Positions 26,255-45,915 of a stretch of 45,915 nt of DNA are shown in pieces. Location: NCBI RefSeq assembly GCF_024281235.1, contig NZ_JAHWXY010000016.1, positions 1 to 45,915 of the forward strand, in the 5' to 3' direction. The stretch comes from Shinella daejeonensis. Lineage in GTDB: Bacteria; Pseudomonadota; Alphaproteobacteria; Rhizobiales; Rhizobiaceae. Each line of letters starts with the position of its first letter. Within the stretch, counting starts at the first letter, position 1. Under the pieces are notes generated by a model that was not told the DNA's origin, ran no database searches, and worked only from the letters and a program-made list of their open reading frames with translations. A program made the position numbers and the translations under genes.

Positions 26255-26602
26255 ATGCGTACTGTCGAACGGCGCATTCTCGGCGAAAATCCGCACCTTG
26301 TTGCGGGCGCTGGTCTGGCCGGGGCAGACTTTTCCTACGAAGTCGATTGGGCTGATCATCCCGGCGCGATAACTGCTCGGACCGGCGAGACCATTATTGT
26401 CATTGATTCGCGAAAGGGTGCCGCCGTCCTTCCTCCCTTGGCGACGAGAGTAGAGGCGCTGATTGCGGAACTGGTTGACGCAGGTCAGGAGCGTATGCCC
26501 GGCGATCGGCGTCTGCGCGCACGTGCGAATTCACAGGGTCTGGTCACGATGAGCGACGAAGAATGGCAATCTCTTCAATCGCTTGCTTCAAACGAAGAAT
26601 AA
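26255..26602 (+). pseudogene. C-terminal remnant of an Ldh-family (malate/lactate-type) oxidoreductase
   Basis: This 115-residue frame has the tail pattern of the LDH2 family of NAD(P)H oxidoreductases: GETIIVIDSRKGA, then RVEALIAELVDAGQERMPGD and a final short helix. The nucleotide-binding and catalytic parts are missing, and the first 15 or so residues do not look like the family. The break is near the right edge of the IS66 debris. It lies three bases before the broken proC, so both may once have been an amino-acid-related operon. The family call is by pattern memory and moderately secure. Confidence 0.55.
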
Positions 26603-30437: not shown

Positions 30438-30481
30438 GATGATCCCAGTCCTCAAATTCGATTGTTCTGACGAGTGAAGCT

Positions 30482-31300
30482 TCAGGCTGGCCAGCCTGCG
30501 GCAGCAAGGTCTTCATCGAGCGAACGCTGTGTTGCGTCGTACTCGGCGATGCTGTCCGGTACGATACGATTGATGACTCCCGACTGCAGTTCCTCGGAAA
30601 TGTGGGCGATCACGCCCGGGAATGTGGACTGGAGCGCGAGGCCTGTCATTTCGGCGGGTGTGAAACCCATCTGGCCCATGATCCCAGCCAGCATGCCCAC
30701 GTCGTTCATCACGAGATCATGTTTACCGGTCGCTTTGCGGAATGCTTCGTGGACGGCGGCGTACCATTCGTTCGCCTCTCCCCAGACGCCCTGCGCCTGG
30801 GCAAAATTCTTCAGCTTCTCGGCGCGCGGATCGACACCGCGGAACACCTGGTGACCAAAACCAGGAATGCGGCGCTTGGCGGCACGAAGTTCCGCGACAA
30901 GGGTTTCCGCGTGCTCCTCCATGCCAAGGCCGGACGCCCTCCATTTGGCGACGCCTTCCGTAATAAAACGGCCGGCATCCTCAGGAGAGACTGCATAGGG
31001 ACCTGCGCCAAGCATTGCGGCCGATAGGCCTGCCGTCATCTGAGGGTTGACCGACACGATGGCGCGCGCGGCGACGGTACCGGACTTCTGCAGGGCGTAA
31101 TCCAGAATGGATGACAGGATGACATCCATCATCCGTGCCTCGCCGGGTGTCGGGATGCAGCCGCGGACCAGGAGAAAACTGATCGCAGGATAACTCAGCC
31201 TGCCGATGATCTCCTGCATGGGATAACCACGAATATAGATGTCCTCGGGCGTGATCCTGCTGATGGAGGAAACCCAGAAAGAGGGGGATGATGCAGCCAT
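30482..31300 (-). CDS. Citryl-CoA lyase / short citrate-synthase-family protein
   Basis: This 272-residue protein has the citrate-synthase C-terminal active-site pattern RIPGFGHQVFRGVDPRAEKL with the His and Arg, and SYPAISFLLVRGCIPTPGEA near the start. It is far shorter than citrate synthase (about 430 residues) and fits citryl-CoA lyase, which splits citryl-CoA to acetyl-CoA and oxaloacetate. It could also act on another 3-hydroxy-3-carboxyacyl-CoA. The ATG at 31300 follows CAGGGAG; a longer frame upstream crosses the promoter and is not used. It is the first gene of a three-gene operon, whose promoter at 31412-31446 has the shared composite element. Confidence 0.82.
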   Translation of the reverse strand: MAASSPSFWVSSISRITPEDIYIRGYPMQEIIGRLSYPAISFLLVRGCIPTPGEARMMDVILSSILDYALQKSGTVAARAIVSVNPQMTAGLSAAMLGAGPYAVSPEDAGRFITEGVAKWRASGLGMEEHAETLVAELRAAKRRIPGFGHQVFRGVDPRAEKLKNFAQAQGVWGEANEWYAAVHEAFRKATGKHDLVMNDVGMLAGIMGQMGFTPAEMTGLALQSTFPGVIAHISEELQSGVINRIVPDSIAEYDATQRSLDEDLAAAGWPA

Positions 31301-31411: not shown

Positions 31412-31446
31412 ATACCACTGGTAATGTTTAACATACTTGCTAGTAT
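31412..31446 (-). promoter_or_regulatory. Composite element copy 1 (citryl-CoA lyase promoter)
   Basis: Read on the minus strand: ATACTAGCAAGTAT (31446-31433), a 7-base A+T-rich spacer GTTAAAC, then a 14-bp box ending CCAGTGGTAT (31425-31412). The first box is an inverted repeat with ATACT/AGTAT arms, the second has TACCA/TGGTA arms. It lies 111 bases before the citryl-CoA lyase start, and 63 bases before the divergent Rid gene, which it may also serve. Confidence 0.7.
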
Positions 31447-31509
31447 GTAGAAGGATGTGGCGCCGGTTCCGGCTGAATCGGTGTGCTTGTAGATTGGAGA
31501 GGAGAGGAC

Positions 31510-31899
31510 ATGGCCTTGGAAGCGATCAACCCACCCGGAGCCGCGTGGCCTGGCGTGTCGCAGGGGATTTTGGGGCAGGGCGCCAAGGTCTTCGTTTCTA
31601 CCGGCCATGTAGGCACCGACGCCAGCGGCGAGCCCGTGACAACCTCGGCGGAAGCCCAGATTGTCGCGCTGTTCGAAAACCTGGGGGCGACGCTTCTGGC
31701 CGCAGGGCTTGGCTTCGAGCACGTGGCGCGCGTGACGACTTACGTTAAAAGTTTCGATCCGGAGTTTCTGGCAACGTTTCGCGCCGTGCGTGCCCGCTAT
31801 CTGAACCAGGATTGCCCGCCCGCCGGTGTCATGGTTGAGGCCGGCCTCTATGATCCTCGCCTCTTGGCGGAAGCTGAAGTTCTCGCGTTTGCTCCTTGA
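31510..31899 (+). CDS. Rid (YjgF/YER057c/UK114) family protein
   Basis: This 129-residue protein shows the Rid pattern: KVFVSTGHVGTDASGEPV, AQIVALFENLGATLLAAG and VARVTTYVKSF. The Arg that binds the carboxylate in enamine deaminase RidA, normally in an ARS/ARxxVEV context, is replaced: here the segment reads PPAGVMVEAGL. It therefore probably does not act as a standard 2-aminoacrylate deaminase and belongs to one of the other Rid groups often found in catabolic operons. The ATG at 31510 follows GAGAGGA. It starts a run of genes (SDR, deacetylase-fold, CoA ligase, amidase) on the same strand. Confidence 0.87.
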   Translation: MALEAINPPGAAWPGVSQGILGQGAKVFVSTGHVGTDASGEPVTTSAEAQIVALFENLGATLLAAGLGFEHVARVTTYVKSFDPEFLATFRAVRARYLNQDCPPAGVMVEAGLYDPRLLAEAEVLAFAP

Positions 31900-31970
31900 G
31901 CGACCGCGCCATCAACCAAAGCCAACTGTTGCATGATTGCGGGCTTTGCCCCGCGGAAGGAGAATTCTAA

Positions 31971-32759
31971 ATGTCCGAGCTTTCAGGACGCATCATCGTG
32001 GTCACCGGCGGCGAGACCGGCATCGGCCGGGCCACCGTGCTGGAACTCGCCCGCGCCGGCGCGAATGTCGTCATGGGCGGCATCCTGGCCGACAAGGCGG
32101 AAGAGACGATCGCCGAGGCGAGCGGTGCCCCCGGCTCGGTCAGTTTTCAGCAGACCGACGTGCGGCTCGTCGATCAGGTCGACGCCCTCGTCGCCAAGGC
32201 AAACGCCGAATATGGCCGGATCGACGGGTTGGTCTGCAATGCCGGCATTTTCGATGGTTTTGCTTCGGGTATCGAGACGAGCGACAGGCTCTGGGACCAG
32301 ATCATCGACGTGAACCTCCGGGGTACTTTCTATGCCTGCCGCGCCGCGTTGCGTCATATGGTGGAGCAAAAGGCGGGCCGCATCGTGAACGTTGCCTCTA
32401 TCGGTGGCCTTACCGGCATGGCGGACGGTGCTTCCTATACTGCATCCAAGCATGGGGTCATTGGTCTGACCCGGCATCTTGGCTGCTACTACGCGAAAGA
32501 TGGCATCACGGTGAATGCAGTTTGCCCCGGCGTGATCACAACGACATTGCGGGACAACTCCACACGTATCCTCGGCGAGGATGCTCCGGTCATGGCTGGC
32601 GTTGGTGTCGAAACCGACTGGCTGCCTGTCCGTGTGCCGATGGCGCGCAAGGGTGTGCCCGAGGATATCTCGGCGATGATCACTTTCCTGCTCTCGGAGC
32701 GGGCGAACTACATTACCGGTCAGTGCATGACGGTCGATGGCGGCTGGACCGCGAAATGA
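31971..32759 (+). CDS. Short-chain dehydrogenase/reductase
   Basis: This 262-residue classical SDR has the cofactor loop TGGETGIG, NAG in VCNAGIF, catalytic Ser in VASIGG, and YTASK with Tyr and Lys. The end NYITGQCMTVDGGW is typical of 3-oxoacyl-ACP reductase/3-hydroxyacyl dehydrogenase-like members. The residue after the second cofactor strand (GGILADKA) is not Arg, which favours neither NADP nor NAD clearly. The start follows GGAAGGAG. With a CoA ligase and a MaoC hydratase nearby it could oxidise a 3-hydroxyacyl-CoA, but that is inference. Confidence 0.9.
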   Translation: MSELSGRIIVVTGGETGIGRATVLELARAGANVVMGGILADKAEETIAEASGAPGSVSFQQTDVRLVDQVDALVAKANAEYGRIDGLVCNAGIFDGFASGIETSDRLWDQIIDVNLRGTFYACRAALRHMVEQKAGRIVNVASIGGLTGMADGASYTASKHGVIGLTRHLGCYYAKDGITVNAVCPGVITTTLRDNSTRILGEDAPVMAGVGVETDWLPVRVPMARKGVPEDISAMITFLLSERANYITGQCMTVDGGWTAK

Positions 32760-32765
32760 GAAAAC

Positions 32766-32788
32766 AAGGGCGGCTGCGGGCCGCCCTT
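32766..32788 (+). terminator. Hairpin between the SDR and deacetylase-fold genes
   Basis: The perfect 9-bp stem AAGGGCGGC / GCCGCCCTT with loop TGCGG begins seven bases after the SDR stop. Only a short pyrimidine run (CCTCG) follows, so it may be a partial terminator or an mRNA-stability element inside the operon. Confidence 0.5.
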
Positions 32789-32811
32789 CCTCGTCCGGAT
32801 CAGGAATGCTC

Positions 32812-33657
32812 ATGACCACAGTTTGCCTCACCTTCGATTTCGATGCTGTCTCGCTCTGGCTGAGCAGCTTCCGGACGACCTCGGCAACGCCCGTGTCGCG
32901 TGGCGAATTCGGCGCGCGCGTGGCCGTGCCGCGATTGCTCAAACTGCTCGACGGGGCGGGCGTGAAAGCCACCTTCTTCGTGCCTTCGCATACCGCCGTC
33001 TCCTATCCGGCGGAGACGATGGCAATCCGCGATGCAGGCCACGAGATCGCCCTGCACGGCTACGTTCATGAAACGCCGGTCGGCTTGGGTCGAGAACAGG
33101 AGGCGAAGAATCTCGATGCGTCCCTGGCAAGGCTGTGCAAGGTGCTCGGTTCTGATTTTGTCCCGCTCGGATATCGTTCGCCCGCCTGGGATCTCTCGCC
33201 CGACACGGTCGAACTGCTGATCGAGCGCGGCCTGATCTACGACAGCTCCATGATGGCCGACGACTTTCGTCCCTACCGCGCTCGCTCGGGAGACGAGCTG
33301 GACGATGACGGCTTCCGACCGGGACCGGAAACCCGGCTCATCGAAATGCCGGTGGCATGGGAACTGGATGACTTTCCCTATTTCGCGTTCCTGAACAAAC
33401 CGCTCTATCAAGGCCTGCGCGATCCGGCGGAGGTCGGTGCCATCTGGCGCGGCGAATTCGACTACTGCAACGAGGAAGTGGAGGACGGCGTTTTCACGTT
33501 GACGATGCATCCCCAGTTCATTGGGCGAGGGCCGCGCATCCGCATGCTGGCGACGCTCATTGACCACATGCGGGATTGCGAGGGAGTCAGGTTCCTGACC
33601 CTCGGCGAAGCAGCCCGGGAGGCAGATGCCTCGCTTTCCAAACCTCGTGAAAATTAG
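32812..33657 (+). CDS. Polysaccharide-deacetylase-fold hydrolase (PgdA/cyclic-imidase/allantoinase-like)
   Basis: This 281-residue protein of the NodB-type (carbohydrate esterase 4) fold has no signal peptide. Metal-site motifs are LTFDFDA (Asp9, Asp11) and LHGYVHE (His82, His86); it also has GYRSPAWDLSP and a C-terminal LTMHPQFIGRGPR segment. Cytoplasmic members of this branch include Helicobacter PgdA-like proteins, PuuE allantoinase and cyclic imidases that open imide rings, rather than sugar deacetylases. The ATG at 32812 follows AGGA with normal spacing; an ATG at 32806 is too close. An amidase gene two genes downstream supports an amide- or imide-opening role. Confidence 0.82.
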   Translation: MTTVCLTFDFDAVSLWLSSFRTTSATPVSRGEFGARVAVPRLLKLLDGAGVKATFFVPSHTAVSYPAETMAIRDAGHEIALHGYVHETPVGLGREQEAKNLDASLARLCKVLGSDFVPLGYRSPAWDLSPDTVELLIERGLIYDSSMMADDFRPYRARSGDELDDDGFRPGPETRLIEMPVAWELDDFPYFAFLNKPLYQGLRDPAEVGAIWRGEFDYCNEEVEDGVFTLTMHPQFIGRGPRIRMLATLIDHMRDCEGVRFLTLGEAAREADASLSKPREN

Positions 33658-33685
33658 CAACTGTTCCATCAGCGGAAGCCGCCAA

Positions 33686-35194
33686 ATGCCCGATTGCCAG
33701 ATGCCGCAGAATGTTTTCATCGCACTCCGCGATCGGATGTCGCCCGATCCTGGCCGAACGGCCTTGGTGTTCGAGAATGAGTACTTTTCATTCGAGGATG
33801 TCGTGGCGTTATCCGAGAACGCCGCTCGCCACCTGATGAGGCTCGGCATCGCCAAGGGCGACAGGGTGGCCGCAATCGCGCAGAACAGGCCCGAAATGCT
33901 GCTGCTTTACTACGCAGCGGCGCGGATCGGAGCGATCTACGTTCCGATGAACCCGAACCTCTCGGAGAGCGAACTGAAATATGCTCTCGCTCATTCCGGG
34001 GCGAGAATGTTGTTCCATGACGAAGTGTCCGGAGATGGCGTGGCGGCTGCAATTCCCGTCGAGCGGCGCCGACCAATCGATCTGCTCAACGAACCTGCCG
34101 GCGGCGTCGATCTCCCCGCAGCATCAGCGGTAATGCCGGACGACGATTTCCTGATCATCTACACGTCCGGAACCACGGGGCAACCCAAGGCGATTCTGCT
34201 CACCCATGCGGCCCAGGTGGGCGTTGCCCGCGCCCTGGCTGAAATGTGGGACCTCGGACGGGATGACGTAACGCTTGTGACGCTCCCCCTCGGATTTCTC
34301 TACGGTCTCTCCACTGGAGCGGCCGTAGGGCTGCAAGCAGGTGGAAAAGTCGTCCTCCTGCGGCGCTTCCATCCCCGGGACGCACTGGAGGCTTTGGTCG
34401 CCCATCGGATAACCATCTACCACGGCGTACCGACGATGTACTCCATGATGCTTGAATTCTGCGAACAGCAGGACAAGCATTTCGATCTGTCGAACGTGCG
34501 GGAGATCATCTGCGCCGGCGCGCCGTTGCCTCTCGAAATGCGTCGCAGGTTTGCCACGCGATTTGGCAAATCGCTGCAGAATTATTATGCGATGACGGAA
34601 GCGACCCCGGTATTCGGCCACTATAGCCGCGATGACGAAATCGTGCCGGAAGGATCGGTCGGCAAGGCGGCGCCTGGGCTGAGCTACCGGATCGTGCGCC
34701 CTGATGGCAGCGATTGCGCACCGGGCGAGCAGGGCGAATTCCTCGTCCGTGCGGCGGCGACCGTGAAGGAATACTATGGGGCACCGGAGCAGACAGCCGG
34801 AGCAATGGTCGACGACTATTTCCGTTCAGGCGATCTTGGACATCGCGATGAGAACGGGTTCTTCTTCATCACCGGCCGTATCAAGGACATCATCATCCGT
34901 GGTGGGGCGAACATCTCGCCGAGCGAGGTTGAGGAGGCCCTGATATCGCATCCGGCTGTCCAGGATGTATCCGTTGTGGGCGGCGCAGATAGGATTTTCG
35001 GGGAAGTCCCCGTGGCGTTCGTGATCCGCCGGGCCGGGGCGGACGTTTCGGTGGACGAACTCGTTGCCCATGCTGAATCCCGGCTTGCCGATTTTAAAGT
35101 GCCGCGCACGGTGCGCTTTATCGACACTTTTCCCCTGGGCAAGACCGGCAAGGTCGACAAGGCCGCCTTGAAGACGATGATCGGGAGTGAGTGA
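33686..35194 (+). CDS. AMP-forming acyl-CoA synthetase (ANL superfamily)
   Basis: This 502-residue enzyme activates a carboxylic acid with ATP and CoA. It has the P-loop-like YTSGTTGQPKA, the MTEATP adenylate motif, DDYFRSGDLGHRDENG, GRIKDIIIRGGANISPSEVE at the hinge and GKTGKVDKAAL with the catalytic Lys near the end. The closest general type is the crotonobetaine/carnitine, malonyl or medium-chain acyl-CoA ligases; the acid is not known. The ATG at 33686 follows GGAAG; longer and shorter starts (33626, 33701) are less well placed. Its stop overlaps the GTG start of the amidase gene, so the two are coupled. Confidence 0.9.
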   Translation: MPDCQMPQNVFIALRDRMSPDPGRTALVFENEYFSFEDVVALSENAARHLMRLGIAKGDRVAAIAQNRPEMLLLYYAAARIGAIYVPMNPNLSESELKYALAHSGARMLFHDEVSGDGVAAAIPVERRRPIDLLNEPAGGVDLPAASAVMPDDDFLIIYTSGTTGQPKAILLTHAAQVGVARALAEMWDLGRDDVTLVTLPLGFLYGLSTGAAVGLQAGGKVVLLRRFHPRDALEALVAHRITIYHGVPTMYSMMLEFCEQQDKHFDLSNVREIICAGAPLPLEMRRRFATRFGKSLQNYYAMTEATPVFGHYSRDDEIVPEGSVGKAAPGLSYRIVRPDGSDCAPGEQGEFLVRAAATVKEYYGAPEQTAGAMVDDYFRSGDLGHRDENGFFFITGRIKDIIIRGGANISPSEVEEALISHPAVQDVSVVGGADRIFGEVPVAFVIRRAGADVSVDELVAHAESRLADFKVPRTVRFIDTFPLGKTGKVDKAALKTMIGSE

Positions 35195-36636
35195 ACGTGA
35201 TCAACCTTGAGGAATATCGTAGTCTTGACGGACTCGTGTTGGCTGACCGGCTTGCAAAGGGTGAGGTCTCCCCTGTCGAACTGATGCAGGCGGCGCTCGA
35301 GATCGGAGCCCGTTTCGAGCCGATGCTGAATGCGCTTTGCTACATCGATCCCGAGCTAGGCCTTTCGCTGGCGCGAGCCGCCAATCGGAAAGGACCGTTT
35401 GGCGCCATCCCGTTCCTGCTGAAGGATTCCGGATTGGCGTCGAGGACGCTCAAGGGGTCCGTCGGTTCACGACTGTTCGAGGGGTCGGGCTCGGCAATCG
35501 ATGCGACCCTGACCAGCCGCTTTGTCGAAGCGGGGTTCCTACCCTATGGACGCACAACGGTTCCCGAATTCTGCATGGCGCCGACAACGGAGGCGGCGGT
35601 TTACGGTGGGCCGACCCGAAATCCCTGGGACTTCGAGCGTTCACCTGGTGGATCGAGCGGCGGAGCCGCGGCGGCCGTTGCCGCGGGCATTGTTCCTGTT
35701 GCTCATGGCAGTGACGGCGGCGGCTCAATTCGGATTCCGGCGGCATGCTGTGGTGTCTATGGCCTTAAACCGTCACGAGGCTTGGTGCCCTACGGCCCGC
35801 TTCGTGGGGAGGGCTGGGCTGGACTTGCCGTTGACGGAGTAATCTCCCGCAGCGTGCGCGACACTGCGGCAGCAATGGACTCGATCGCCGGGATGGAACG
35901 CGGCCAACCTTACGCCGCGCCGGGCCGCCCGGATTCATATCTGGCGCTTCTGGACCGCGCCTTCAACCGTCCCATGCGCATCGCACGCTGGACGAAGGCG
36001 TGGGATGATATTCCCATTGCAGCCGAGTGCATCGCGGCGCTCGACAAGGCAACGAAGACCCTCTCCAGTCTGGGACACGAGGTCATCGATGCGGATTTGC
36101 CGGAGATTAAGTATGCGAGCTTCATCGAAGCCATCATCGACGTCATGGCGACGAATGTCGCGGTGACGGTAGGCGGCGTCCTCCGCAGTAGGCCGGACGG
36201 CGACCCGCGGGATTTGCTTGAGCCTGCGATCCATGACGCATACCAGATGGGCCGTACGATGCCGGCCGAGCGATACGCTCTTGCGGTCACGCGGTTCCAT
36301 GGCATCGGTCGTACGCTGGAAAACTATATCGCAGGGTTCGATTTCATCCTCACGCCGACCCTGACGAAACCGCCGCTACGGCTCGGCGAGCTTTCGATGA
36401 GCGATGACTTCCGTAGCTTCCGCAGGAAGGCCGGACTGTATACGACCTTTCTTGCGATCATAAACGCATCAGGTCAGCCCGCCGCAAACATCCCGTTACA
36501 TCGCGATGCAGCGGGGATGCCCATCGGTGTACAGCTGATCGCGCCTTTCGGCGGCGAGGCGGATCTCATGCGCCTGTCGGCACAGATCGAGTCTGAGGCG
36601 CCCTGGGGCCATCTCCTGCCGCCAATTCCGATTTGA
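35191..36636 (+). CDS. Amidase-signature-family amidase
   Basis: This 481-residue enzyme has the Ser-cisSer-Lys triad of the amidase signature family: the Lys in FLLKDSG (about residue 79), the cis-Ser in [16 protein letters not shown] and the nucleophile in [16 protein letters not shown]. It hydrolyses a linear amide to an acid and ammonia or an amine. Translation starts at GTG 35191, overlapping the CoA ligase stop (GTGA). Next to a possible ring-opening hydrolase it could act as a half-amidase; next to a ligase it could release the acid that is then activated. It ends the operon and faces the TetR gene. Confidence 0.9.
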
Positions 36637-36646
36637 AAACTACGCT

Positions 36647-36668
36647 CTATCGCACTATCGAGCGATAG
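36647..36668. terminator. Small hairpin between convergent amidase and TetR genes
   Basis: CTATCGC (36647-36653) pairs with GCGATAG (36662-36668) around an 8-base loop. It overlaps the last codons and stop of the TetR gene. The 7-bp stem and lack of a T run make it a weak candidate. Confidence 0.35.
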
Positions 36669-37308
36669 CACCGGCGTCCTGGAGCGATATTTCCGGATGG
36701 GACCGGTTCCGGCACCCGTCGAGCACCATGGTTATGAAGTGGTCAGCGATATCTGAGGGCTTCAACGCGCGGTTCGGTTTGTACCAGGTGTGCGTGAAGG
36801 TGCACATGCCGACGATGCTTGTAACCACGACATATGGGGGAATATCCTTGAAGATGCCCGCCTTGACGCCGCGGCTGTAGGTGCTGGAAAAGAGCCGGTC
36901 GAATTCCCTCTTGTGCTCGATGACAATCGCGCTCTGCTCCTCTGTCAGTTCAGACTGATCCCGGAAGTAGATCGCAGTCCATTCGCGCTTGTCCATGACG
37001 TTGAGCGCCATTTGGCGGATCATCGCGGCAAGTTGTTCGTCGGCAGGCGTATCTCGCGTGACGATCGCCTGCATCTCCTCCCACCAGGTTTCGTGAATCT
37101 TTTTGAAGATCTCCCAGAGCAGCTGGTTCTTGTTTTTGAAGTAATAGTAGACGACCGCTTTCGTGTAGCCGAGCGATGCCGAGACGTCATCCAGCGTGAC
37201 GGCTCGAAAGCCGCGTTCCGCGAATAGTTCGGCGGCAACCGCCAAAATCTCATCCTGAACATACGCCTGCTTGCGGGCCTTGAGTTCGTTTCGGCGCGTT
37301 GTCTTCAT
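36655..37308 (-). CDS. TetR-family transcriptional regulator
   Basis: This 217-residue protein has the N-terminal TetR helix-turn-helix (ILAVAAELFAERGFRAVTLD, then VSASLGYTKAVVYYYFKNKN, about residues 20-65) and an all-helical ligand domain with YFRDQSELTEEQ and VVVTSIVGMCTF. This type is common for regulators of acyl-CoA or aromatic catabolism, where a CoA ester is the inducer. It is the only regulator gene in the 28.5-45.9 kb block, which makes it the best candidate to bind the ATACT…RGTAT / TGGTAT element found at four promoters there. One copy lies in the intergenic space divergent from this gene. Confidence 0.92.
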   Translation of the reverse strand: MKTTRRNELKARKQAYVQDEILAVAAELFAERGFRAVTLDDVSASLGYTKAVVYYYFKNKNQLLWEIFKKIHETWWEEMQAIVTRDTPADEQLAAMIRQMALNVMDKREWTAIYFRDQSELTEEQSAIVIEHKREFDRLFSSTYSRGVKAGIFKDIPPYVVVTSIVGMCTFTHTWYKPNRALKPSDIADHFITMVLDGCRNRSHPEISLQDAGAIAR

Positions 37309-37492
37309 CAGAATTCCAATGGCTGTCTCTTGGGCACGACGTGCGTGAAATGGAAGGGCGTTCGGGTGCGCAACCTGCAGCCGAAGGGATTCCGCATATT
37401 CGGAAAATCCAACTCTCTAGTCAACCGCGGTATGTTCGCGGACCTATATGAATTTAAAGATGCCTAAAGGTAGTTTTCGTCAACCAATGATA

Positions 37493-37535
37493 TTGACAAA
37501 AATACTCATGAGTATGTAAATAAGCCAAATGGTAT
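37493..37535 (+). promoter_or_regulatory. maoC promoter with composite element copy 2
   Basis: TTGACA (37493-37498) could be a -35 with GTAAAT (37516-37521) as -10 at 17-base spacing. The perfect palindrome ATACTCATGAGTAT (37502-37515) fills most of the spacer, so a bound repressor would block polymerase. After six bases comes the second box, ending CCAAATGGTAT (to 37535). The element ends 68 bases before the maoC ATG. The first palindrome is the most symmetrical copy of the four. Confidence 0.72.
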
Positions 37536-37603
37536 GACCGAGAGGCAAGGCACCTTCAGCGGCATACCCGCGAAGCCTTTTACGTAAAGACATGGAGCTC
37601 AGT

Positions 37604-38104
37604 ATGGACGCCTCGAATCCGGCGGAAAGCATTTCCCTGAACATCGGACCGAACGCGCTGTTCTTCGAGCAGTTCACGGTAGGCCAGGACTGGAAGACGC
37701 CGCGCCGTACCGTCACCGAGGCCGACATCGTGCTCTTCGCGGGAATGACCGGCGATTACAACCCCGTCCACACGGACGAGGTTTTTGCCCGTCAGACGCC
37801 GTTCGGCACGCGGATCCTTCACGGACCTGCAGTCTTCGCTATTGCCACCGGCCTCGAATTTCGCCTTGGGCTGAAGGAAGGCACGGCCATCGCTTTCCTG
37901 GGTATGACCTGGGATCTTAAGGCACCGGTAAAGATCGGCGATACGATCCACGTTTACCAGCGCGTCGAATCTGTCCGGCCCACGAAGAATCCCGCGCGAG
38001 GCATCGTTGGATTCTGGGTCGAGGTACGCAATCAGAACGATGAGATCTGCCAGCAGGGCGAGTGGAAGGTGATGTTCCATGCGCGGCCGCCTGTAGATGC
38101 CTGA
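37604..38104 (+). CDS. MaoC-family (R)-specific enoyl-CoA hydratase-like protein
   Basis: This 166-residue hot-dog-fold protein has the hydratase-2 motif FAGMTGDYNPVHTDE with catalytic Asp51 and His56, followed by RILHGPAVFAIATG. It would add water to an enoyl-CoA. A single hot-dog domain acts as a dimer. The ATG at 37604 is chosen because GGAGCTC lies just upstream; an ATG at 37592 has no ribosome site. Its promoter carries the composite element and a possible TTGACA box. The ABC transporter genes follow on the same strand after 116 bases, so it may head a maoC-transporter unit. Confidence 0.9.
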   Translation: MDASNPAESISLNIGPNALFFEQFTVGQDWKTPRRTVTEADIVLFAGMTGDYNPVHTDEVFARQTPFGTRILHGPAVFAIATGLEFRLGLKEGTAIAFLGMTWDLKAPVKIGDTIHVYQRVESVRPTKNPARGIVGFWVEVRNQNDEICQQGEWKVMFHARPPVDA

Positions 38105-38220
38105 TCGCAATAACGGCGGACCGCAGGTCCGGCCAGTCGGCCCGGCCTTGTTCGTTCAGGTGGGTGAGAGATCGCGTCGGCTCAGCGGACTGAGCAGGTC
38201 GGCTATGGAGGGAGTGAGTC

Positions 38221-39012
38221 TTGATCGCGGAAATACAGGCGGGTCCCAGGGTTCCCGAAGCAGCTCCGAACATTCTGGAGGTGCGCAATCTGCGCAAGTC
38301 GTTCGGTGTGCACGAAGTGCTGAAGAACATCAATTTCGCGATGCGCAAAGGCGAGGTTGTTGCAGTCATCGGCCCAAGCGGGTCAGGCAAGAGCACCCTC
38401 CTACGCTGCCTCAATCAGCTCGAGCCTGCCTCCGGCGGCGAAATTACCATCGATGGACTGACCATCCGGGCCGACCATCAGCTGCGTCGCGCAGAGTTGA
38501 TGGGCCTGCGCAGGAAAGCCGGTATGGTGTTCCAGTCGTTCAACCTGTTCCCCCACCTGTCGGTGTTGCGAAACATCAGCCTGCCCCAGGAGCGCGTGCT
38601 TGGCCGCAGCCGGGCGGAGGCGGAGAAGCGGGCGCATGCACTTCTTGAGCGGGTGGGCCTCGCCGACAAGGCGTCTCAATATCCCGCGCGCTGTTCGGGC
38701 GGGCAGCAGCAACGTATCGCCATTGCCCGGGCGCTGGCACTCGATCCCCAGGTCATGCTCTTCGACGAGCCGACGTCGGCACTCGATCCCGAGGTCGGTC
38801 TCGAAGTGCTTGCAGTGATGAAGGAACTTGCCGAAGGCGGAATGACGATGGTTGTCGTCACGCACGAGATGCATTTTGCGGAAACCGTTTCGGACCGGGT
38901 GCTTCTGATGGCCGATGGCCATATCCTCGAAGAGGGGCCAAGTGCCGAGGTCATGCGCAATCCGAAGTCGGAACGCGCGCAGCGCTTCCTCAAGGCGGTT
39001 ATGAACAGATGA
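38221..39012 (+). CDS. ABC transporter ATP-binding protein, polar amino acid type
   Basis: This 263-residue ATPase of the GlnQ/HisP type has Walker [10 protein letters not shown], the Q-loop in [14 protein letters not shown], signature CSGGQQQR (Cys instead of the usual Leu), Walker [14 protein letters not shown] and the switch His in [10 protein letters not shown]. It powers uptake together with the two permeases and the binding protein that follow. Translation starts at TTG 38221 behind GGAGGGAG. Its stop overlaps the next start by four bases. Confidence 0.94.
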
Positions 39013-39653
39013 GCTGGGATTTCGCCATTCTCATCCTGAGCGGCTTGCCATGGACCATCGTGGTGACGATAGGCGCTTTTGCGATGGGGCTCATCCTGGG
39101 TGCGCCGCTGTGTGCGATGCATATCTCGCGCAATCCGATCCTTCATTTCCTCGCGCTCGCGATCATCATCTTTCTGCGCTCCATCCCGCCGATTGTCTGG
39201 GTGTTCCTGCTGTTTTTCGGCCTTGGTTCCGGTTTCATCAGCATCGGCGCAATTCCGGCGACGATCATTGCGCTCGGCGTGGTCACCGCAGCGAACATGG
39301 CGGAAATCTACCGCGGGTCGCTCAGCAGCATTCATGCGGGGCAATGGGAGGCGATCAGTGCACTGGGTCTTCCTCCCGTATCGTCCTTCAAGGATATTAT
39401 TCTGCCACAGTTGTTCCGTGTGACGCTGCCGTCCGCCGCCAGCTACCTGATCGGTCTTTTCAAGGATTCAGCGATCGCGTCGACCGTCGGCGTGATGGAC
39501 ATCGCTTTCCTGGCGAATTTTGTCGCCCGCAAGAGCTTTGACGGGCTGACGCCCTTCGCGTTCGCGGCGGTTCTCTACATCCTGATCAGCATTCCGATAG
39601 CGCTGGTGGCGCGCATCGCCGACGCCCGCCTGAGACAGAAGGTGGCGCAATGA
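39009..39653 (+). CDS. ABC transporter permease, polar amino acid type (first)
   Basis: This 214-residue inner-membrane protein with about five membrane helices has the HisM/GlnP-type EAA loop: [20 protein letters not shown] followed by [16 protein letters not shown]. It forms half of the channel. It overlaps its neighbours on both sides by ATGA, so the transporter genes are translated as a coupled set. Confidence 0.92.
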
Positions 39654-40306
39654 GCGATATTCTCTCTTTTTGGGGAACCTATCTCCCGCAGATATTGGAC
39701 GGCCTCGGAATCAGCCTGAAGGTCACCGGTGCCTCACTTGCAATCGGAATTCCCGCCGGCCTGGCTCTCGCGTTGATGGTACAGGCGAAATCACGCTTCC
39801 TGCGCTGGTTCTGCCTTGCCGTCGTCGAAATCGGTCGCGGCGCTCCAGCGTTGATCCTGCTTCAGTTCGCGTATTTCGGCCTGCCGAATGTCGGGGTGAG
39901 CCTGACATCCTTCGCCGCGGCCGTCGCCGCGCTGAGCTGGAGCACGGCAGCCTATACCAGCGAAATTATCCGGGCCGGGCTGCAGGCCGTGCCGCGCGGC
40001 CAAATCGAGGCTTCCGACGCGCTGGGCCTGAGTTTTGCCGATCAACTCCGTTTCGTCCTCGTTCCGCAAGGATTGCGGGTGGCGGCGCCGGCACTGCTTG
40101 GTTTTGCGGTCCTCATGCTGCAGGCATCCTCCCTGGCCTTTACGATCGCGCTCCCCGAGCTTCTTTCGCAGGCCTACATCATCGGCACCACCACCTTCCG
40201 CTACATGCCGATCCTTTGCCTCGCGGGCCTTCTCTACGCCTGTATCTGCATTCCAGCGACGCTTCTTGTCGGCTGGTTCGAACGCCGCCTCGCGCGCCAC
40301 GCCTGA
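39650..40306 (+). CDS. ABC transporter permease, polar amino acid type (second)
   Basis: This 218-residue permease is a paralogue of the preceding one, with the EAA loop AYTSEIIRAGLQAVPRGQIE and SDALGLSFADQLRFVLVPQG. It forms the second half of the heterodimeric channel. It overlaps the first permease gene by four bases and lies 43 bases before the binding-protein gene. Confidence 0.92.
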   Translation: MSDILSFWGTYLPQILDGLGISLKVTGASLAIGIPAGLALALMVQAKSRFLRWFCLAVVEIGRGAPALILLQFAYFGLPNVGVSLTSFAAAVAALSWSTAAYTSEIIRAGLQAVPRGQIEASDALGLSFADQLRFVLVPQGLRVAAPALLGFAVLMLQASSLAFTIALPELLSQAYIIGTTTFRYMPILCLAGLLYACICIPATLLVGWFERRLARHA

Positions 40307-40349
40307 ATGGCGGGTTCGGGTCCGGCAATGTCCAACAGAGGGAACTGAC

Positions 40350-41168
40350 ATGCGAAATATTATGATGATGACCGCATTCGCGCTGGCAACGCAGATTTCC
40401 GTCGCGGCTGCACAGGACTGCAAGACCGAGGTCGTAACGATCACGCCGGGTAAGCTCGTCGTCGCGGGTTACGACTATCCCCCGTTCTCGCAGACCAATC
40501 CGGATGGTTCGCTAAGCGGCATCGATTTCGACGTCGTGAGGGCGGTGGCCGACGAGAATTGCCTGGAAGTCGTTCCCATGGCGGTCGATCCGTCGGCCGC
40601 CGTCCAGGCCGTCGTGTCGGGCAAGGCGGATGTTGCCATCGGCGGCTGGAACCGCACCGAAAAGCGCGTCGACGTTCTCGGCATGTCGGCGCCGACCTAT
40701 CTCGACCCCTCGGCGATTTTCTCCAAGGATGGCATCGATACCATTGCTGGCCTCGAGGGCAAGACGGTCGGGACGGTGTCGGGCTATCTCTTCGTACCGG
40801 ACCTGCAGGCACTTCTCGGCGCAAACCTGAAGCTCTATCCGAACGGTGTGGCGCTGGCGCAGGACCTCGCGGCCGGCCGGATCGACGCCGCCGTGGACGG
40901 CTATACCTACGGCGTCTACAGCCAGAAGAACGCGGGTGCCTACGAGGATATCCAGATCAAGATTCCGGCGGCGGACGAGCGCGTCGGCTCGACCGTTCGC
41001 CCGCCGCAGGCCGCCGTCCTTTACACCAAAGGCAATGAAAGCCTCGGCAAGGCACTGGATACCGGTATCGACCGGTTGCACAAGGATGGCAAGCTGACGG
41101 CCGCTGTCACGGCCGCCGGCTTCGATGCCTCCCTGGCCGACACCGGTGAACCCTATTTCGTCAAGTAA
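40350..41168 (+). CDS. ABC transporter substrate-binding protein, polar amino acid type
   Basis: This 272-residue protein has a signal peptide (MRNIMMMTAFALATQISVAAAQ) and the family 3 binding-protein fold: LVVAGYDYPPFSQTNPDGSL, GIDFDVVRAVADE, and ADVAIGGWNRTEKRVDV, which contains the usual Arg for carboxylate binding. It delivers an amino-acid-like or opine-like ligand to the permeases. The ATG at 40350 follows AGAGGGAA. A clear terminator follows the gene. Ligand identity is the key unknown of the whole block. Confidence 0.93.
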   Translation: MRNIMMMTAFALATQISVAAAQDCKTEVVTITPGKLVVAGYDYPPFSQTNPDGSLSGIDFDVVRAVADENCLEVVPMAVDPSAAVQAVVSGKADVAIGGWNRTEKRVDVLGMSAPTYLDPSAIFSKDGIDTIAGLEGKTVGTVSGYLFVPDLQALLGANLKLYPNGVALAQDLAAGRIDAAVDGYTYGVYSQKNAGAYEDIQIKIPAADERVGSTVRPPQAAVLYTKGNESLGKALDTGIDRLHKDGKLTAAVTAAGFDASLADTGEPYFVK

Positions 41169-41194
41169 GCCCGACGGTCTTGAAATATGACTTG

Positions 41195-41229
41195 CCCCGG
41201 CCCGGATTTCCGGCCGGGGTTTCCTTTTT
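41195..41229 (+). terminator. Rho-independent terminator after the ABC operon
   Basis: Stem CCCCGGCC (41195-41202) with GGCCGGGG (41212-41219) is followed by TTTCCTTTTT. It lies between the binding-protein gene and the thioesterase gene, so part of the transcripts should end before the thioesterase. Confidence 0.8.
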
Positions 41230-41249
41230 CTGCAAGCCAGGATCCCGCG

Positions 41250-41741
41250 ATGACGCAAACCGACGCTTCCGACTTCCTTCCCCTTGTCACATGGACGGGT
41301 GAGGTTCCCATGGATTGGCTCGACTACAATGGCCACATGACGGAGCACCGATATCTTCAAGTCTGTGGCGAAGCGTCCGACAAACTGTATCAAACGATCG
41401 GTGTTGACTTTTCCCGCGCTGAGGACGGCGCCTTCTATACGTTGCAGACGCATCTCGTTCACCTCGACGAATGCCGGCAGGGCGCGTCGTTGCAGGCGAG
41501 CTCGGAGATCCTTGGCTATGACGAGAAGCGCCTACACCTTTTTCATCGCATCCGTGACGGTAAGGGGCGCCTGCTGGCGACAGGGGAGCACTTGTCGATC
41601 CATGTTGCCCGGGGAAAATCCTGCCCGGCCTCGACAGCGATGCTGGAACAGATCGCTTCGCTCTACCAGGTCACCGCGGATAGACCGCTGCCGGAGGGTA
41701 CGGGAGCCGTCCTGCGCAAGGATCTGGAGTTTCACCGGTGA
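41250..41741 (+). CDS. Hot-dog thioesterase, betainyl-CoA/4-hydroxybenzoyl-CoA thioesterase-like
   Basis: This 163-residue protein begins MTQTDASDFLPLVTWTGEVP at 41250, after AGGA. The motif MDWLDYNGHMTEHRYL carries the catalytic-type Asp of the 4HBT group, and LQTHLVHLDECRQGASLQA and GYDEKRLHLFHRI resemble the thioesterases of carnitine catabolism that split betainyl-CoA. It would release a free acid from a CoA ester near the end of the pathway. It is downstream of the ABC transporter but separated from it by a terminator. The betaine link is by resemblance only. Confidence 0.82.
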   Translation: MTQTDASDFLPLVTWTGEVPMDWLDYNGHMTEHRYLQVCGEASDKLYQTIGVDFSRAEDGAFYTLQTHLVHLDECRQGASLQASSEILGYDEKRLHLFHRIRDGKGRLLATGEHLSIHVARGKSCPASTAMLEQIASLYQVTADRPLPEGTGAVLRKDLEFHR

Positions 41742-41757
41742 TTGATGGATAAAGGAG

Positions 41758-41793
41758 AAGGCCGCGCGCCCTAACGGACACGCGGCCTTTTTT
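41758..41793. terminator. Bidirectional rho-independent terminator
   Basis: AAGGCCGCG (41758-41766) pairs with CGCGGCCTT (41781-41789), followed by a T run. It separates the plus-strand thioesterase from the minus-strand amine-oxidase-like gene; the A-rich left side could serve the other strand. Confidence 0.85.
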
Positions 41794-41810
41794 ACGTTCT
41801 GCGGTTGGGT

Positions 41811-42971
41811 TCAGGTGTTGTACTGCCCCGCTTCCCATCTACGGCGCTCCCGCCAATCGCTTGGCGTGTCCCTGAAACGATCCAGCGAAAGCTGCTCGAT
41901 CGGCATGCGCGTTGCGCCGTTCATGAGAAGCTCCGATGCTGCAACACCGACGGCAGGGGACATACCAAAGCCGTGGCCTGAGCAAGCTGCGGTCACCAGT
42001 CCTTCCGGGCTATCAAAGCGATGGATTGTGGTCATCTGATCGGGGGCGATGTCGACGATCCCGGCCCAGCAACGAAGGAACTGAGCACCCTTCAGGACCG
42101 GCATCGTTTCGATGGCGCGCCGCATGATGTTGCGGACGGTCTGGGTGGTCGGCTTTGCGGCTTCCCTGCCGATTTCGAGGTTGATCCACTCATATGGCCC
42201 GCCATTCATATGAATATTGCCCCGTTTCGTCTGGCGGATGGAGAGACCGTTGCCGATGAAAGCCTGCTCGAACAGAGGGGGCATCGGTGTCGTTACCAGT
42301 GCTTCGAGACGGACCGGCGCAAGAGGGAAATGAATACCGAACGGTTTGAGAAGCAGTGGATTGTGTGCCGCCGCGCAAAGGGCGACATTTCCGCAATGGA
42401 TTTCACCCTGGGGCGTGCGCACGCCCTTGACCTTGCCAGCTTCAACGAGAACTTCCAGAACCGGAGTGTATTCCCGGATTTCGCCACCGAGATCGGTGAA
42501 TGCCCAGCCGAATGCCTGGGAGGTCCGCTGCGGGTTGGCGTGACCGGAACGATTCGTCCAGATGCCTCCGAGGCAGCGCTCGCTGAGACAGGGGATCATC
42601 TTGCGCATGGTCGCGCCATCGAGGAATTCGAAGGGAACATCCGTCTTCTGGAACGTCCGGTAGAGCTTCTGCAAATCGGCGAACTCATGTTCGTCAAGTG
42701 CGGCCCAGATCCGGCCTTTTTGGGTCCACTCGGTCGGATAACCCAGTTCATCGTCCAATCCGTCCCAAAGCTTCTCGGCTTCTTGTGCGAGCGGACTTTC
42801 AGCGGGCGTCTCGCCGCGCAAGCTCAGATAGCCGGTTGCGCGTGACGAGGCTTCGTAGGCCGTAGCGCCTGCGTCGAGAACCAGCACTTTCGCACCGGCC
42901 TTCTGCGCGCGATACGCGGTGGAAAGTCCGAGGATCCCCGCACCGACGACGATGATGTCATAGCTTTGCAT
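41811..42971 (-). CDS. FAD-dependent amine/amino-acid oxidoreductase (DadA/HcnC/sarcosine-oxidase-like)
   Basis: This 386-residue flavoprotein of the DAO family has the intact dinucleotide motif DIIVVGAGILGLSTAYRAQK at the start, SSRATGYLSLRGE, and near the end TAACSGHGFGMSPAVG, the flavin-contacting C-terminal motif. Family members oxidise secondary or primary amino acids to imines. It is the last gene of a three-gene unit with the HcnB-like flavoprotein and the nitronate-monooxygenase-like gene; HcnB/HcnC-type pairs form heteromeric opine, D-hydroxyproline or glycine dehydrogenases. The ATG at 42971 begins 25 bases after the upstream stop. Confidence 0.88.
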   Translation of the reverse strand: MQSYDIIVVGAGILGLSTAYRAQKAGAKVLVLDAGATAYEASSRATGYLSLRGETPAESPLAQEAEKLWDGLDDELGYPTEWTQKGRIWAALDEHEFADLQKLYRTFQKTDVPFEFLDGATMRKMIPCLSERCLGGIWTNRSGHANPQRTSQAFGWAFTDLGGEIREYTPVLEVLVEAGKVKGVRTPQGEIHCGNVALCAAAHNPLLLKPFGIHFPLAPVRLEALVTTPMPPLFEQAFIGNGLSIRQTKRGNIHMNGGPYEWINLEIGREAAKPTTQTVRNIMRRAIETMPVLKGAQFLRCWAGIVDIAPDQMTTIHRFDSPEGLVTAACSGHGFGMSPAVGVAASELLMNGATRMPIEQLSLDRFRDTPSDWRERRRWEAGQYNT

Positions 42972-42996
42972 GTTCGTATCCAATATCGAGGAATGA

Positions 42997-44439
42997 TCAG
43001 CCCTGGCGGGTCTCATAGGGCCACATCTGCCAGTTCAGGCGAATGTCATCGGTTTCATCGTCATCCGCGATAAGGGTGAGATCGATCGGCCGTAGCGGGA
43101 AGCGGTAACTTGCGGGGCGGATCGACTCCAGCCCGATACCGAAGCGGAGCGAGAGTGCGAATATCGCCTCGTCCCGGCAACGCTTGCCCTGACAGTGCCC
43201 CATGGACACGCGGGTCATACGCTTCATGAAGTCCTGATTGATGCGGGGTGCGGTCGCGTCGTCGCCATGATTGAGCGGTGTCTGTGGATGGCGCAGGGAT
43301 TTGCCTAGATACTGTGGCGGCGCGAGACCGCAGAATTCGGCGCGGCTGACGGTTTCGCATTGGCAGAGGACGACGTCGTCCCCACCCGTCTTGTGCAGGG
43401 CATCGATCCATGAGGTGATATAGCCGGTAGCAGACACTTTTCGTGATGGCGCCGCGGTCACGCGGCTATCGCGCTCCGCGCCCCCGATCCTGTCAAGGAT
43501 TGCCGTGTGCAGGTCGCCATTGCCGCCACCGGCATCCGATAGCCAGAATACGCCTTCGAGACTGGTCTCCCCCTGCGCGGTAGTCCGGGGAATCCAGGAT
43601 GCGGCATCCGCAACGTAGTGCATCTCGCAGCCCATGGCCGCCGGCAACTCGATGTTGGGAAGCGTGGCAATGGCCACTGCAACCGTATCGCAGGCGATCT
43701 CCTCGCTTGGTCGATTGTCGAGCGAGACCAGTTTGACGCCGGTGACCGCCGTCTTGCCGATCGCTTCCGCGATGACCTGTCCGAGATGCACAGGAATGTC
43801 TTGCGCGGCGAGCCAGGCGGCTGCCTCAGGTCCGGCCACAACGGATTCGCCCGGCTCGACGATGCCTGCCACCTCGACGCCGCGCTCGCGCGCCGATCGA
43901 ACGACGCGAAGCGCGAGCTCGTCGGAGCCGAGGACGACGACCCGCTTGCCTTCGAACACCTGATAGAGGTCCAGCAGCGCCAGCCCCGCCTTGCCACCGA
44001 GTACACCGGGCAGCTCCCAGCCTTTAAAGGACGGAACGAAATCCCGCACTCCGGTCGCGATGATCAAGGCATCGTGTTCGAGGATTTCGTTGCCTTCCCG
44101 CGTGACCAGTCCAACCTTGGGCCTCCCGACATGAAGGCAGTTCGGGCCGTTGCGGAAAGCGCCCCAGAGAACGGTGGACACGCGAACGTCGATGCCCGCC
44201 TCGATGCATTCCATGAGCTGGGGGCTGGCTTCCAGTACGGACTGCGCGATCGAGTTGTCATTCATGAGGGCGGAGGGAAGGCCGGCCCCATAAAACCAGG
44301 GCGCATCGAAGGACATGTCCTTCAGAGCCTGCGGGTGTTCGTCGACGAGGGTGACGTCGTGACCTGCCGCATGCGCTGCAAGGGCGATTTTAAAGCCGGC
44401 GTCGCTGGCTCCGGCGATGACGATCTTGCGAGATGACAT
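42997..44439 (-). CDS. HcnB/opine-oxidase-A-like flavoprotein with a BFD-like [2Fe-2S] domain
   Basis: This 480-residue protein has the pyridine-nucleotide-disulfide-reductase fold followed by a BFD-like domain. Iron-sulfur ligands are CQC (Cys359, Cys361) and GHCQGKRC (Cys416, Cys421), although the 55-residue gap between the pairs is longer than the usual 30 or so. The two dinucleotide-binding loops are unusual: GASDAG at residues 10-15 and GSDELA at 171-176 instead of GxGxxG/A. ATG (RDFVPSF) and GWELPGVLGGKAG motifs are normal. It should partner the downstream DadA/HcnC-like protein as electron-transfer subunit. It lies 19 bases after the nitronate-monooxygenase-like gene. Confidence 0.85.
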   Translation of the reverse strand: MSSRKIVIAGASDAGFKIALAAHAAGHDVTLVDEHPQALKDMSFDAPWFYGAGLPSALMNDNSIAQSVLEASPQLMECIEAGIDVRVSTVLWGAFRNGPNCLHVGRPKVGLVTREGNEILEHDALIIATGVRDFVPSFKGWELPGVLGGKAGLALLDLYQVFEGKRVVVLGSDELALRVVRSARERGVEVAGIVEPGESVVAGPEAAAWLAAQDIPVHLGQVIAEAIGKTAVTGVKLVSLDNRPSEEIACDTVAVAIATLPNIELPAAMGCEMHYVADAASWIPRTTAQGETSLEGVFWLSDAGGGNGDLHTAILDRIGGAERDSRVTAAPSRKVSATGYITSWIDALHKTGGDDVVLCQCETVSRAEFCGLAPPQYLGKSLRHPQTPLNHGDDATAPRINQDFMKRMTRVSMGHCQGKRCRDEAIFALSLRFGIGLESIRPASYRFPLRPIDLTLIADDDETDDIRLNWQMWPYETRQG

Positions 44440-44458
44440 GGTGGGCGTTCTTCCGGTC

Positions 44459-45571
44459 TCAAGCTTCGTTTATCTGGGTCAGCCGCTCCATGGCCTCGGA
44501 ATATTCGAGGATCATGTCGTACATGACGCTTTTCACGGTGGTCGGTTCGTTGACGCGGCCGACGATCTGGCCGGCGGAATAAGTCATCCAGTCCTTTCGG
44601 CGCGCACGCTCTACGCGGCGGAAGGGTTCGCCGGAAACGATGGATTGCATCGGCGTGTTCTTGAGGGTGGCGGGAGCGTCGGGGCGGAGCCAGGCTTCGG
44701 TGTATTTGGACCGGATCGCGCGACAAGGCTTGCCGGTATATCCAAGCGTGATGACGGCGTCCTCGGCCTTCGCCTCGTAAAGCACTTCACGCATGTCCGG
44801 TGTCAGCTCACTCTCGGTGGTGCCGAGCCAGATCGTGCCGCACCAAACGCCCTCGGCGCCGAGGGCGAGGGCTGCCGCCATCTGACGGCCTCGGCCGATG
44901 CCGCCGGCTGCGAGTACTGGTGTCGGGGCGACGGCATCGATGATCTCCGGCCAGAGGACAAGCGAGCTGATCTGGCCGGTGTGGCCGCCGGCCTCGGCGC
45001 CCTGAGCGACAATGATGTCGATACCGGCCTCGATCTGCTTTTGTGCCTGGCGTGGGCTGCCGACCAGCGCACCGAACTTGATACCCTGTTCGTGCACACG
45101 GTCGATGATGTGAGCCGGAGCAACGCCGAGCGCCGAAACGACCAACTTGACCGGATGCCGCAGGGCGACATCGAGCAGCGCCTCGCTGGCCTCCGGGCTG
45201 AAGGCGAGGTTGCGAGCATATTCGGCATACCAGCCTTTCTCCTCGTCTTTCGGGAGAGGCGGTACGCCGTCCTCGTCAAGAAGACGGTTTATGAACTCGC
45301 GGCTCTCCGCGGGGATGATTTCCCGAGGGCTTTCCTTGAAATCCACCTTCGTCGCCGTCGAGGAGAATACCATATCGACACCGTAGGGCAGGCCATCGAT
45401 GTGATCGTCGATCCACTTCAGTTCCTGTTCGAGATGCTCCGGCGTCATCCATGCTGCCCCGAGCACACCCATTCCACCTGCCTTGGACGTCGCTACGACG
45501 ACATCGCGGCAATGGCTGAAGGCGAAGACGGGGGCGTCGATCCCGAACATTTCCGTTGTAACTGTCTTCAT
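44459..45571 (-). CDS. Nitronate-monooxygenase-family FMN protein (NPD/FabK-like)
   Basis: This 370-residue TIM-barrel flavoprotein has ATSKAGGMGVLGAAWMTPEH at the start, IIVAQGAEAGGHTG with the conserved His, and TPVLAAGGIGRGRQMAAALA for FMN phosphate binding. Family members oxidise nitronates, reduce enoyl thioesters (FabK) or act in steroid/CoA-ester catabolism; the C-terminal tail of about 100 residues is longer than in simple nitronate monooxygenases. The ATG at 45571 is chosen because the longer upstream frame crosses the promoter. It heads the operon with the HcnB-like and DadA-like genes, and its promoter has the composite element. Confidence 0.87.
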   Translation of the reverse strand: MKTVTTEMFGIDAPVFAFSHCRDVVVATSKAGGMGVLGAAWMTPEHLEQELKWIDDHIDGLPYGVDMVFSSTATKVDFKESPREIIPAESREFINRLLDEDGVPPLPKDEEKGWYAEYARNLAFSPEASEALLDVALRHPVKLVVSALGVAPAHIIDRVHEQGIKFGALVGSPRQAQKQIEAGIDIIVAQGAEAGGHTGQISSLVLWPEIIDAVAPTPVLAAGGIGRGRQMAAALALGAEGVWCGTIWLGTTESELTPDMREVLYEAKAEDAVITLGYTGKPCRAIRSKYTEAWLRPDAPATLKNTPMQSIVSGEPFRRVERARRKDWMTYSAGQIVGRVNEPTTVKSVMYDMILEYSEAMERLTQINEA

Positions 45572-45618
45572 CTGAGGGCTCCCTGTGCCTAAGCGTTCGC
45601 CGTGTCCGGCCGCGCAAC

Positions 45619-45652
45619 ATACCATGTGGCGAAAAAAGATACCGGTAAGTAT
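45619..45652 (-). promoter_or_regulatory. Composite element copy 3 (nitronate-monooxygenase promoter)
   Basis: Read on the minus strand: ATACTTACCGGTAT (45652-45639), spacer CTTTTT, then a 14-bp box ending CCACATGGTAT (to 45619). It lies 47 bases before the start codon of the nitronate-monooxygenase-like gene. The layout is base for base the same length as the maoC and etfB copies. Confidence 0.7.
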
Positions 45653-45719
45653 GAATAAGAGGCTTGATGGTACGGTGTCAACCGGATTGCGCGCGCAGAA
45701 AACCATCTGAGCGAAAAAA

Positions 45720-45753
45720 ATACTTGTAAGTATGATATAATACTATATGGTAT
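45720..45753 (+). promoter_or_regulatory. Composite element copy 4 (etfB promoter)
   Basis: ATACTTGTAAGTAT (45720-45733), spacer GATATA, then ATACTATATGGTAT (45740-45753). A TATAAT at 45736-45741 could be the -10 and is overlapped by the element. It ends 67 bases before the etfB ATG, almost the same distance as at maoC. Confidence 0.72.
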
Positions 45754-45820: not shown

Positions 45821-45915
45821 ATGAAAATCCTGATCCCGGTGAAACGGGTGGTCGACTACAACGTGAAGATCCGGGTGAAGACGGACGGATCGGGCGTTGA
45901 GCTTGCCAACGTGAA
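45821..45915 (+). CDS. etfB: Electron transfer flavoprotein beta subunit, N-terminal part
   Basis: The first 31 codons read [17 protein letters not shown] then [14 protein letters not shown], the standard start of ETF beta. The window ends here. ETF takes electrons from acyl-CoA dehydrogenases and from dimethylglycine/sarcosine-type dehydrogenases and passes them to the quinone pool through ETF-quinone oxidoreductase. A ribosome site AAAGGGAAG precedes the ATG. The composite element in its promoter links it to the TetR-associated catabolic genes upstream. Confidence 0.9.

Follow-up and report, generated by a model that had tools for sequence, protein, structure and literature searches.

Palindromic boxes repeated in the promoter regions of a catabolic gene cluster in Shinella daejeonensis are, judging from sequence comparison, very probably the operator arrays of a TetR_C_24-type repressor encoded at 36655-37308, which would repress both the cluster and its own gene, tetR. 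The sites were far more frequent than expected by chance and were confined to this one cluster. All positions refer to the window, i.e. the whole 45,915-nucleotide stretch of DNA that was analysed.

Box arrays and the genes they flank

The preliminary description placed four copies of a two-part element at 31412-31446 (minus strand), 37502-37535 (plus), 45619-45652 (minus), and 45720-45753 (plus), and all four were present there. Copy 1, between the citrate-synthase-like and RidA genes, contained a strong box at 31433-31446 and a weaker box at 31412-31425, 21 bp apart. The boxes of the other copies were 20 bp apart: a strong box at 37502-37515 with a weaker one at 37522-37535 in the tetR/MaoC region (copy 2), a weaker box at 45619-45632 with a strong one at 45639-45652 upstream of the NMO-like gene (copy 3), and two full boxes at 45720-45733 and 45740-45753 upstream of etfB (copy 4). 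All four copies fell between divergently oriented genes (citrate-synthase-like/RidA, TetR/MaoC, and NMO/etfB). Three of the four strong boxes read ATACT(N)4AGTAT letter for letter and the fourth had G in RGTAT, and all eight half-sites in these four boxes were of the TAC type.

The two parts did not turn out to be a fixed composite. The repeated unit was a single palindrome, ATACY-N4-RGTAT, and the second box was its degenerate copy, except in copy 4, where it was a complete palindrome, unlike the weaker second boxes of the other copies. It had also been noted that no further copy was visible by eye, which was correct for the exact composite but not for additional boxes. A third, weaker box (45660-45673) flanked the strong box of copy 3 on its opposite side, 21 bp off, giving three boxes in that region (45619, 45639, and 45660), and a partial box (45700-45713) flanked the strong box of copy 4 in the same way, 20 bp off. 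A box of the GAC type at 37410-37423, with a weak partner at 37389-37402, is a putative autoregulatory site of tetR. An array holds two or three boxes at intervals of 20 or 21 bp, and the weaker ones flank the strong box on one side or on both. The boxes at 45619, 45639, 45660, (45700), 45720, and 45740 resembled a comb of about 20 bp spanning the NMO/etfB region (45619-45753).

The order of the boxes relative to the downstream gene, described as the same in all copies, was shared by copies 2 to 4, while copy 1 has a divergent gene on each side, either of which could be its target. Copy 1 is 64 bp from the RidA start (31510), and the likely start of the citrate-synthase-like gene (31300, picked by comparison with locus L005) is 112 bp away, so that RidA is nearer than the gene on copy 1's own strand.

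On the minus strand, the cluster included genes for an isocitrate/isopropylmalate-dehydrogenase-like protein (28539-29591), an Asp/Glu/hydantoin racemase (29646-30455), and a citrate-synthase-like protein (30482-31300), followed after the divergent region by plus-strand RidA, SDR, polysaccharide-deacetylase-like, AMP-ligase, and amidase genes (31510-36636). Beyond tetR (36655-37308, minus strand), a MaoC-like gene (37592-38104) preceded amino-acid type ABC transporter genes and a 4HBT thioesterase-like gene (38221-41741), all on the plus strand. The minus-strand DAO (41811-43016), Pyr_redox (42997-44439), and NMO-like (44459-45571) genes came next, and the plus-strand frame at 45821-45915, truncated by the contig end, was read from its sequence as the start of etfB; a related locus (L078) has etfB behind its boxes. 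Between RidA and the deacetylase-like gene (31510-33657) the window had SDR alone, and loci L005 and L078 additionally had an acyl-CoA dehydrogenase and an FAD oxidoreductase there. A short frame at 26255-26602 matched the C-terminal third of an Ldh_2 dehydrogenase alone, below the curated cut-off, and may be a broken gene. A literature search for papers sharing five of six terms for the gene set of the cluster found none.

The protein encoded at 36655-37308 carried TetR_N (E 3.8e-16) and TetR_C_24 (E 1.3e-25) domains, both above cut-off, and its recognition helix read TKAVVYYYF. Palindromic sites were present at the promoter of its own gene and at neighbouring promoters, which is a feature of local repressors in the TetR family. 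We propose that each 14-bp box would take one TetR dimer, and that two or three dimers would load, perhaps cooperatively, on the same face of the DNA where a strong box is flanked at 20 or 21 bp by one or two weaker boxes. The repressor would then hold down the units for RidA, amidase, acyl-CoA ligase, MaoC, uptake, flavin oxidoreductases, and ETF, as well as its own gene, until a pathway metabolite, probably a CoA thioester, released it. As predicted from sequence, the switch is most likely a well-supported yet fairly ordinary local repressor of breakdown genes.

Confinement of the sites to one cluster

The exact composite, ATACTNNNNRGTAT-N14..16-TGGTAT, had four matches in the 4,657,968-base genome, all inside the window, and a reversed control pattern had none. 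With up to three mismatches allowed, the N14 form matched the window seven times, compared to a mean of 0.07 and a maximum of one in shuffled sequences. The single palindrome ATACYNNNNRGTAT occurred at six places in the 4.66 Mb genome, five of them in the window. The sixth (C11:1273293, locus L049) was apparently within a solute-binding-protein frame and was treated as a chance match.

A genome-wide scan with a profile built from the four copies, the check proposed in the preliminary description, recovered the four copies and two weaker matches on the same central boxes, one of them on the opposite strand at copy 2 (37483-37517). Every match fell in the cluster that encodes the TetR protein. 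The proposed regulon is therefore local: comparison with relatives indicated that the sites do form one, but not one scattered over the genome. Five further genomes from the family, including four from the same genus, gave no match to the profile.

Four similar copies inside 14 kb might also be recent duplications, or repeats arising by chance, with no common function. We regard this as scarcely credible, as the copies share little outside the boxes, chance is excluded by the shuffled and reversed-pattern controls, and the arrays recur in distant relatives.

Arrays beside TetR orthologues in other bacteria

Forty loci with TetR relatives were obtained from a scan of public genomes. Eighteen were orthologue loci (L005-L022, 46-68% identity, with L022 a partial match at 56%) and 22 were non-orthologues (L023-L044). 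Around most of the orthologues the cluster was conserved, with little or none of it in L019 and L022. In the orthologue set, which totals 328,218 bases, eight of the 18 loci contained the palindrome derived from the window, nine times altogether (shuffle mean 0.22, maximum 1 in 60 shuffles). It was absent from the 22 non-orthologue loci (381,272 bases; shuffle mean 0.80).

Upstream regions of the orthologue loci contained box arrays with mixed ATAC, TGAC, or CGAC half-sites, preceding the same kinds of gene as in the window. With box scores fixed after inspection of the orthologue loci, 102 boxes scoring at least 12 were found in 103 upstream regions, compared to 25 in shuffles, and 51 box pairs were spaced at 20 or 21 bp, compared to 1.2 in shuffles. 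All upstream-region counts given here (boxes, pairs, half-sites, z values, and words) include regions that lie behind the racemase gene, since the query was the antisense of that gene. In whole orthologue loci, 49 of the 169 strong boxes were partnered at 20 or 21 bp, compared to a mean of 6.4 at ten other pairs of offsets, while in non-orthologue loci only 1 of 44 was, compared to 2.2 at other offsets. The spacing of 20 or 21 bp, which had been interpreted as two helical turns, was thus conserved in the arrays of relatives. A mixed control set that still held orthologue loci gave a z value of 3.5 for the 21-bp signal, compared to 6.1, as expected if the set holds real sites before unmapped genes. 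An unbiased palindrome count was only suggestive in support of the boxes: at spacing 6 the words ATAC-N6-GTAT (10) and TGAC-N6-GTCA (8) ranked highest, but CGCC-N8 also reached 10, and shuffling yielded a word with a count of 9 at the same spacing of 6.

At 12 of the 18 orthologue loci, a box scoring at least 13 was located within 250 bp upstream of tetR. At L019 no box scoring at least 12 was listed upstream of tetR, and a three-box array was found upstream of a RidA homologue. L022 had two isolated boxes and no cluster, L074 had four boxes, and no box was found in the 3.6 kb of L075. The four-copy profile itself transfers poorly to relatives. Across the 18 orthologue loci it gave one weak match (L018, E 0.061), it matched non-orthologue L026 weakly twice (E 2.9 and 5.7), and it had no match in genome G206 despite a TetR orthologue there, at a locus showing boxes of mixed type.

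These comparisons bear on an alternative raised in the preliminary description, that TGGTAT, here taken with its surroundings, is part of an extended -10 promoter element and no operator. The sites are indeed intergenic, AT-rich, and upstream of genes. A simple promoter scan, which was neutral on this point, drew a blank at copies 1 and 2; at copy 4 it gave one match, on the minus strand, in line with the number expected from shuffled sequences. A promoter element is very unlikely, because TGGTAT agrees with TATAAT at three of six positions, the boxes occur in both orientations and on both sides of the strong box, the base preceding TGGTAT differs among the four copies, and the half-sites of relatives are often GAC instead of TAC.

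The box scores were set with plasmid p5 of Rhizobium sp. NZLR1, a predicted conjugative plasmid annotated with the same cluster as the window, left out. With strong boxes defined by a score of at least 13, p5 had 10 in 4,871 intergenic bases, compared to 12 in 35,729 coding bases (p = 1e-4, Fisher test). The intergenic ones were upstream of an ABC ATPase gene (one), tetR (one), MaoC (two), RidA (two), and a carboxylesterase gene (one), and three were between an adenylate-kinase gene and etfB. Six of the 10 had a partner scoring at least 10 at 20 or 21 bp; counted by array, the partnered boxes listed were at 17448, 21249, 21269, 28557, 28901, 32590 (paired with 32611), and 39665. The independence of p5 is only partial, because the scoring loci nearest to it (L009 and L010) were 77-82% identical to it over their longest stretches.

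Orthologues of the window protein were rare. Counting the own genome each time, they were found in 1 of 21 genomes at genus level, 2 of 297 and 2 of 394 at family level, and 3 of 397 at order level; in the larger searches, scoring was limited to the top 7-10 candidates. The sporadic occurrence of TetR and its cluster (2 of 297 family genomes) and their presence on a predicted conjugative plasmid suggest horizontal transfer.

The TetR protein named as the obvious candidate binder in the preliminary description is still the most likely one, supported by the comparison with orthologue loci. Alternatively, another TetR-family regulator with the same half-site specificity, encoded elsewhere in the genome, might bind the sites and leave the local TetR a bystander. 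A first-look search found 22 candidate relatives of the window protein in its own genome, and at four other loci (see below) different TetR_C_24 proteins are encoded beside the same element. We nevertheless consider such a regulator improbable, given that the arrays track the orthologues of the window protein over Rhodobacteraceae, Rhizobiales, Burkholderiales, and Pseudomonas, that boxes are located at tetR's own promoter, and that all genome-wide matches surround tetR.

The element at other loci and in known systems

A looser composite pattern had nine matches (one site counted on both strands) in eight other genomes among 297 of the family, and its reversed control had six. A stricter double-box pattern was found in the own genome and G624 alone among the 398 genomes of the phylum search, with one control match. 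At four of these nine other loci, a TetR_C_24 gene was found within the 17-19 kb fetched, encoding a protein 26-29% identical to that of the window with TKPF in its recognition helix. These were three of the family loci, taken first as promoter-like (L067-L069; in L069 the gene was ~7.8 kb from the matched site), and the G624 locus (L073). The remaining five (L079-L083) had no TetR match at E 1e-4 in their fetched context (11.8 kb for L081). With a TetR_C_24 gene at four of the nine loci and none at five, this background is probably about half chance and half real use by other regulators, and the element seems to mark a specificity class among TetR_C_24 regulators. At L067:9100-9133, two perfect ATACY-N4-RGTAT boxes spaced at 20 bp lie behind a TetR_C_24 gene and ahead of an acyl-CoA-dehydrogenase-like frame.

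The relatives with solved structures included DarR chains, which are only distantly similar to the window protein (E 3.9e-12). According to the available excerpts of PMC10636190, DarR of mycobacteria and Rhodococcus is a TetR-family protein that binds c-di-AMP and whose operators contain ATACT(N)4AGTAT, the same palindrome as in the window. Two dimers bind each operator, and Lys44 and Gly45 read a TXC motif. Changing Gly45 to Val abolished binding, and the authors expected any residue but Gly at this position to prevent DNA interaction (PMC10636190, excerpts). By motif, the window protein keeps the recognition-helix Lys and two Tyr, but it has Ala after the Lys where DarR has Lys44-Gly45 (a placement deduced from the TK...YY motif). 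A DarR-type operator is therefore striking for this protein, given the effect of Val in DarR. The arrangement also differs, with DarR dimers on overlapping palindromes within 20 bp according to those excerpts and the window boxes separate, 20 or 21 bp apart. These likenesses suggest that an actinobacterial DarR operator is used by proteobacterial catabolic TetR regulators.

Among 120 listed of 168 homologues, the residue after the recognition-helix Lys was Ser in 118, Thr in one, and Ala in one, the window protein; the L022 relative also had Ala. Where the orthologue was of the Ser type, GAC-type half-sites made up 83 of the 134 in strong upstream boxes. As a tentative reading that we hold to be possible rather than probable, a large catabolic subgroup of TetR_C_24 proteins might read helically phased arrays of DarR-type boxes, with the residue after the Lys (Gly, Ser, Ala, or Pro) tuning the tolerance for TAC or GAC. 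On the Ala side this covers a single cluster-bearing genome, and the Pro-type loci are no test of it because they were found with the TAC pattern. If true, it would contradict the suggestion, in the excerpts of PMC10636190, that a non-Gly residue prevents DNA interaction.

Our analysis proposes an operator and a regulator for a sporadic catabolic cluster that in one relative is on a predicted conjugative plasmid, and the paired boxes could aid regulon prediction for other unstudied TetR_C_24 genes. A literature search with the motif strings returned no TetR paper. Its sole match, PMC545781, concerned in its available excerpt a LysX palindrome in Desulfovibrio.

Local repressors with comparable layouts are described in the available excerpts of two further papers. 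AtuR of Pseudomonas, like the regulator proposed here, represses a catabolic cluster and binds a pair of inverted repeats in the divergent atuA-atuR region, but these are 13 bp long (a study cited in PMC3511530). TetR of Tn10 likewise has a pair of palindromic operators between divergent genes and regulates its own gene, but with 15-bp operators and a drug-efflux operon as the target (PMC3511530). FadR of Sulfolobus acidocaldarius belongs to the TetR family and represses acyl-CoA genes clustered locally; its sites in the genome are few, and each operator takes one or two dimers. It differs in being archaeal, in its 16-bp dyad motif, and in placing two dimers on one inverted repeat with no array (PMC6449355). 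Of the systems compared, this FadR comes functionally closest to the predicted repressor.
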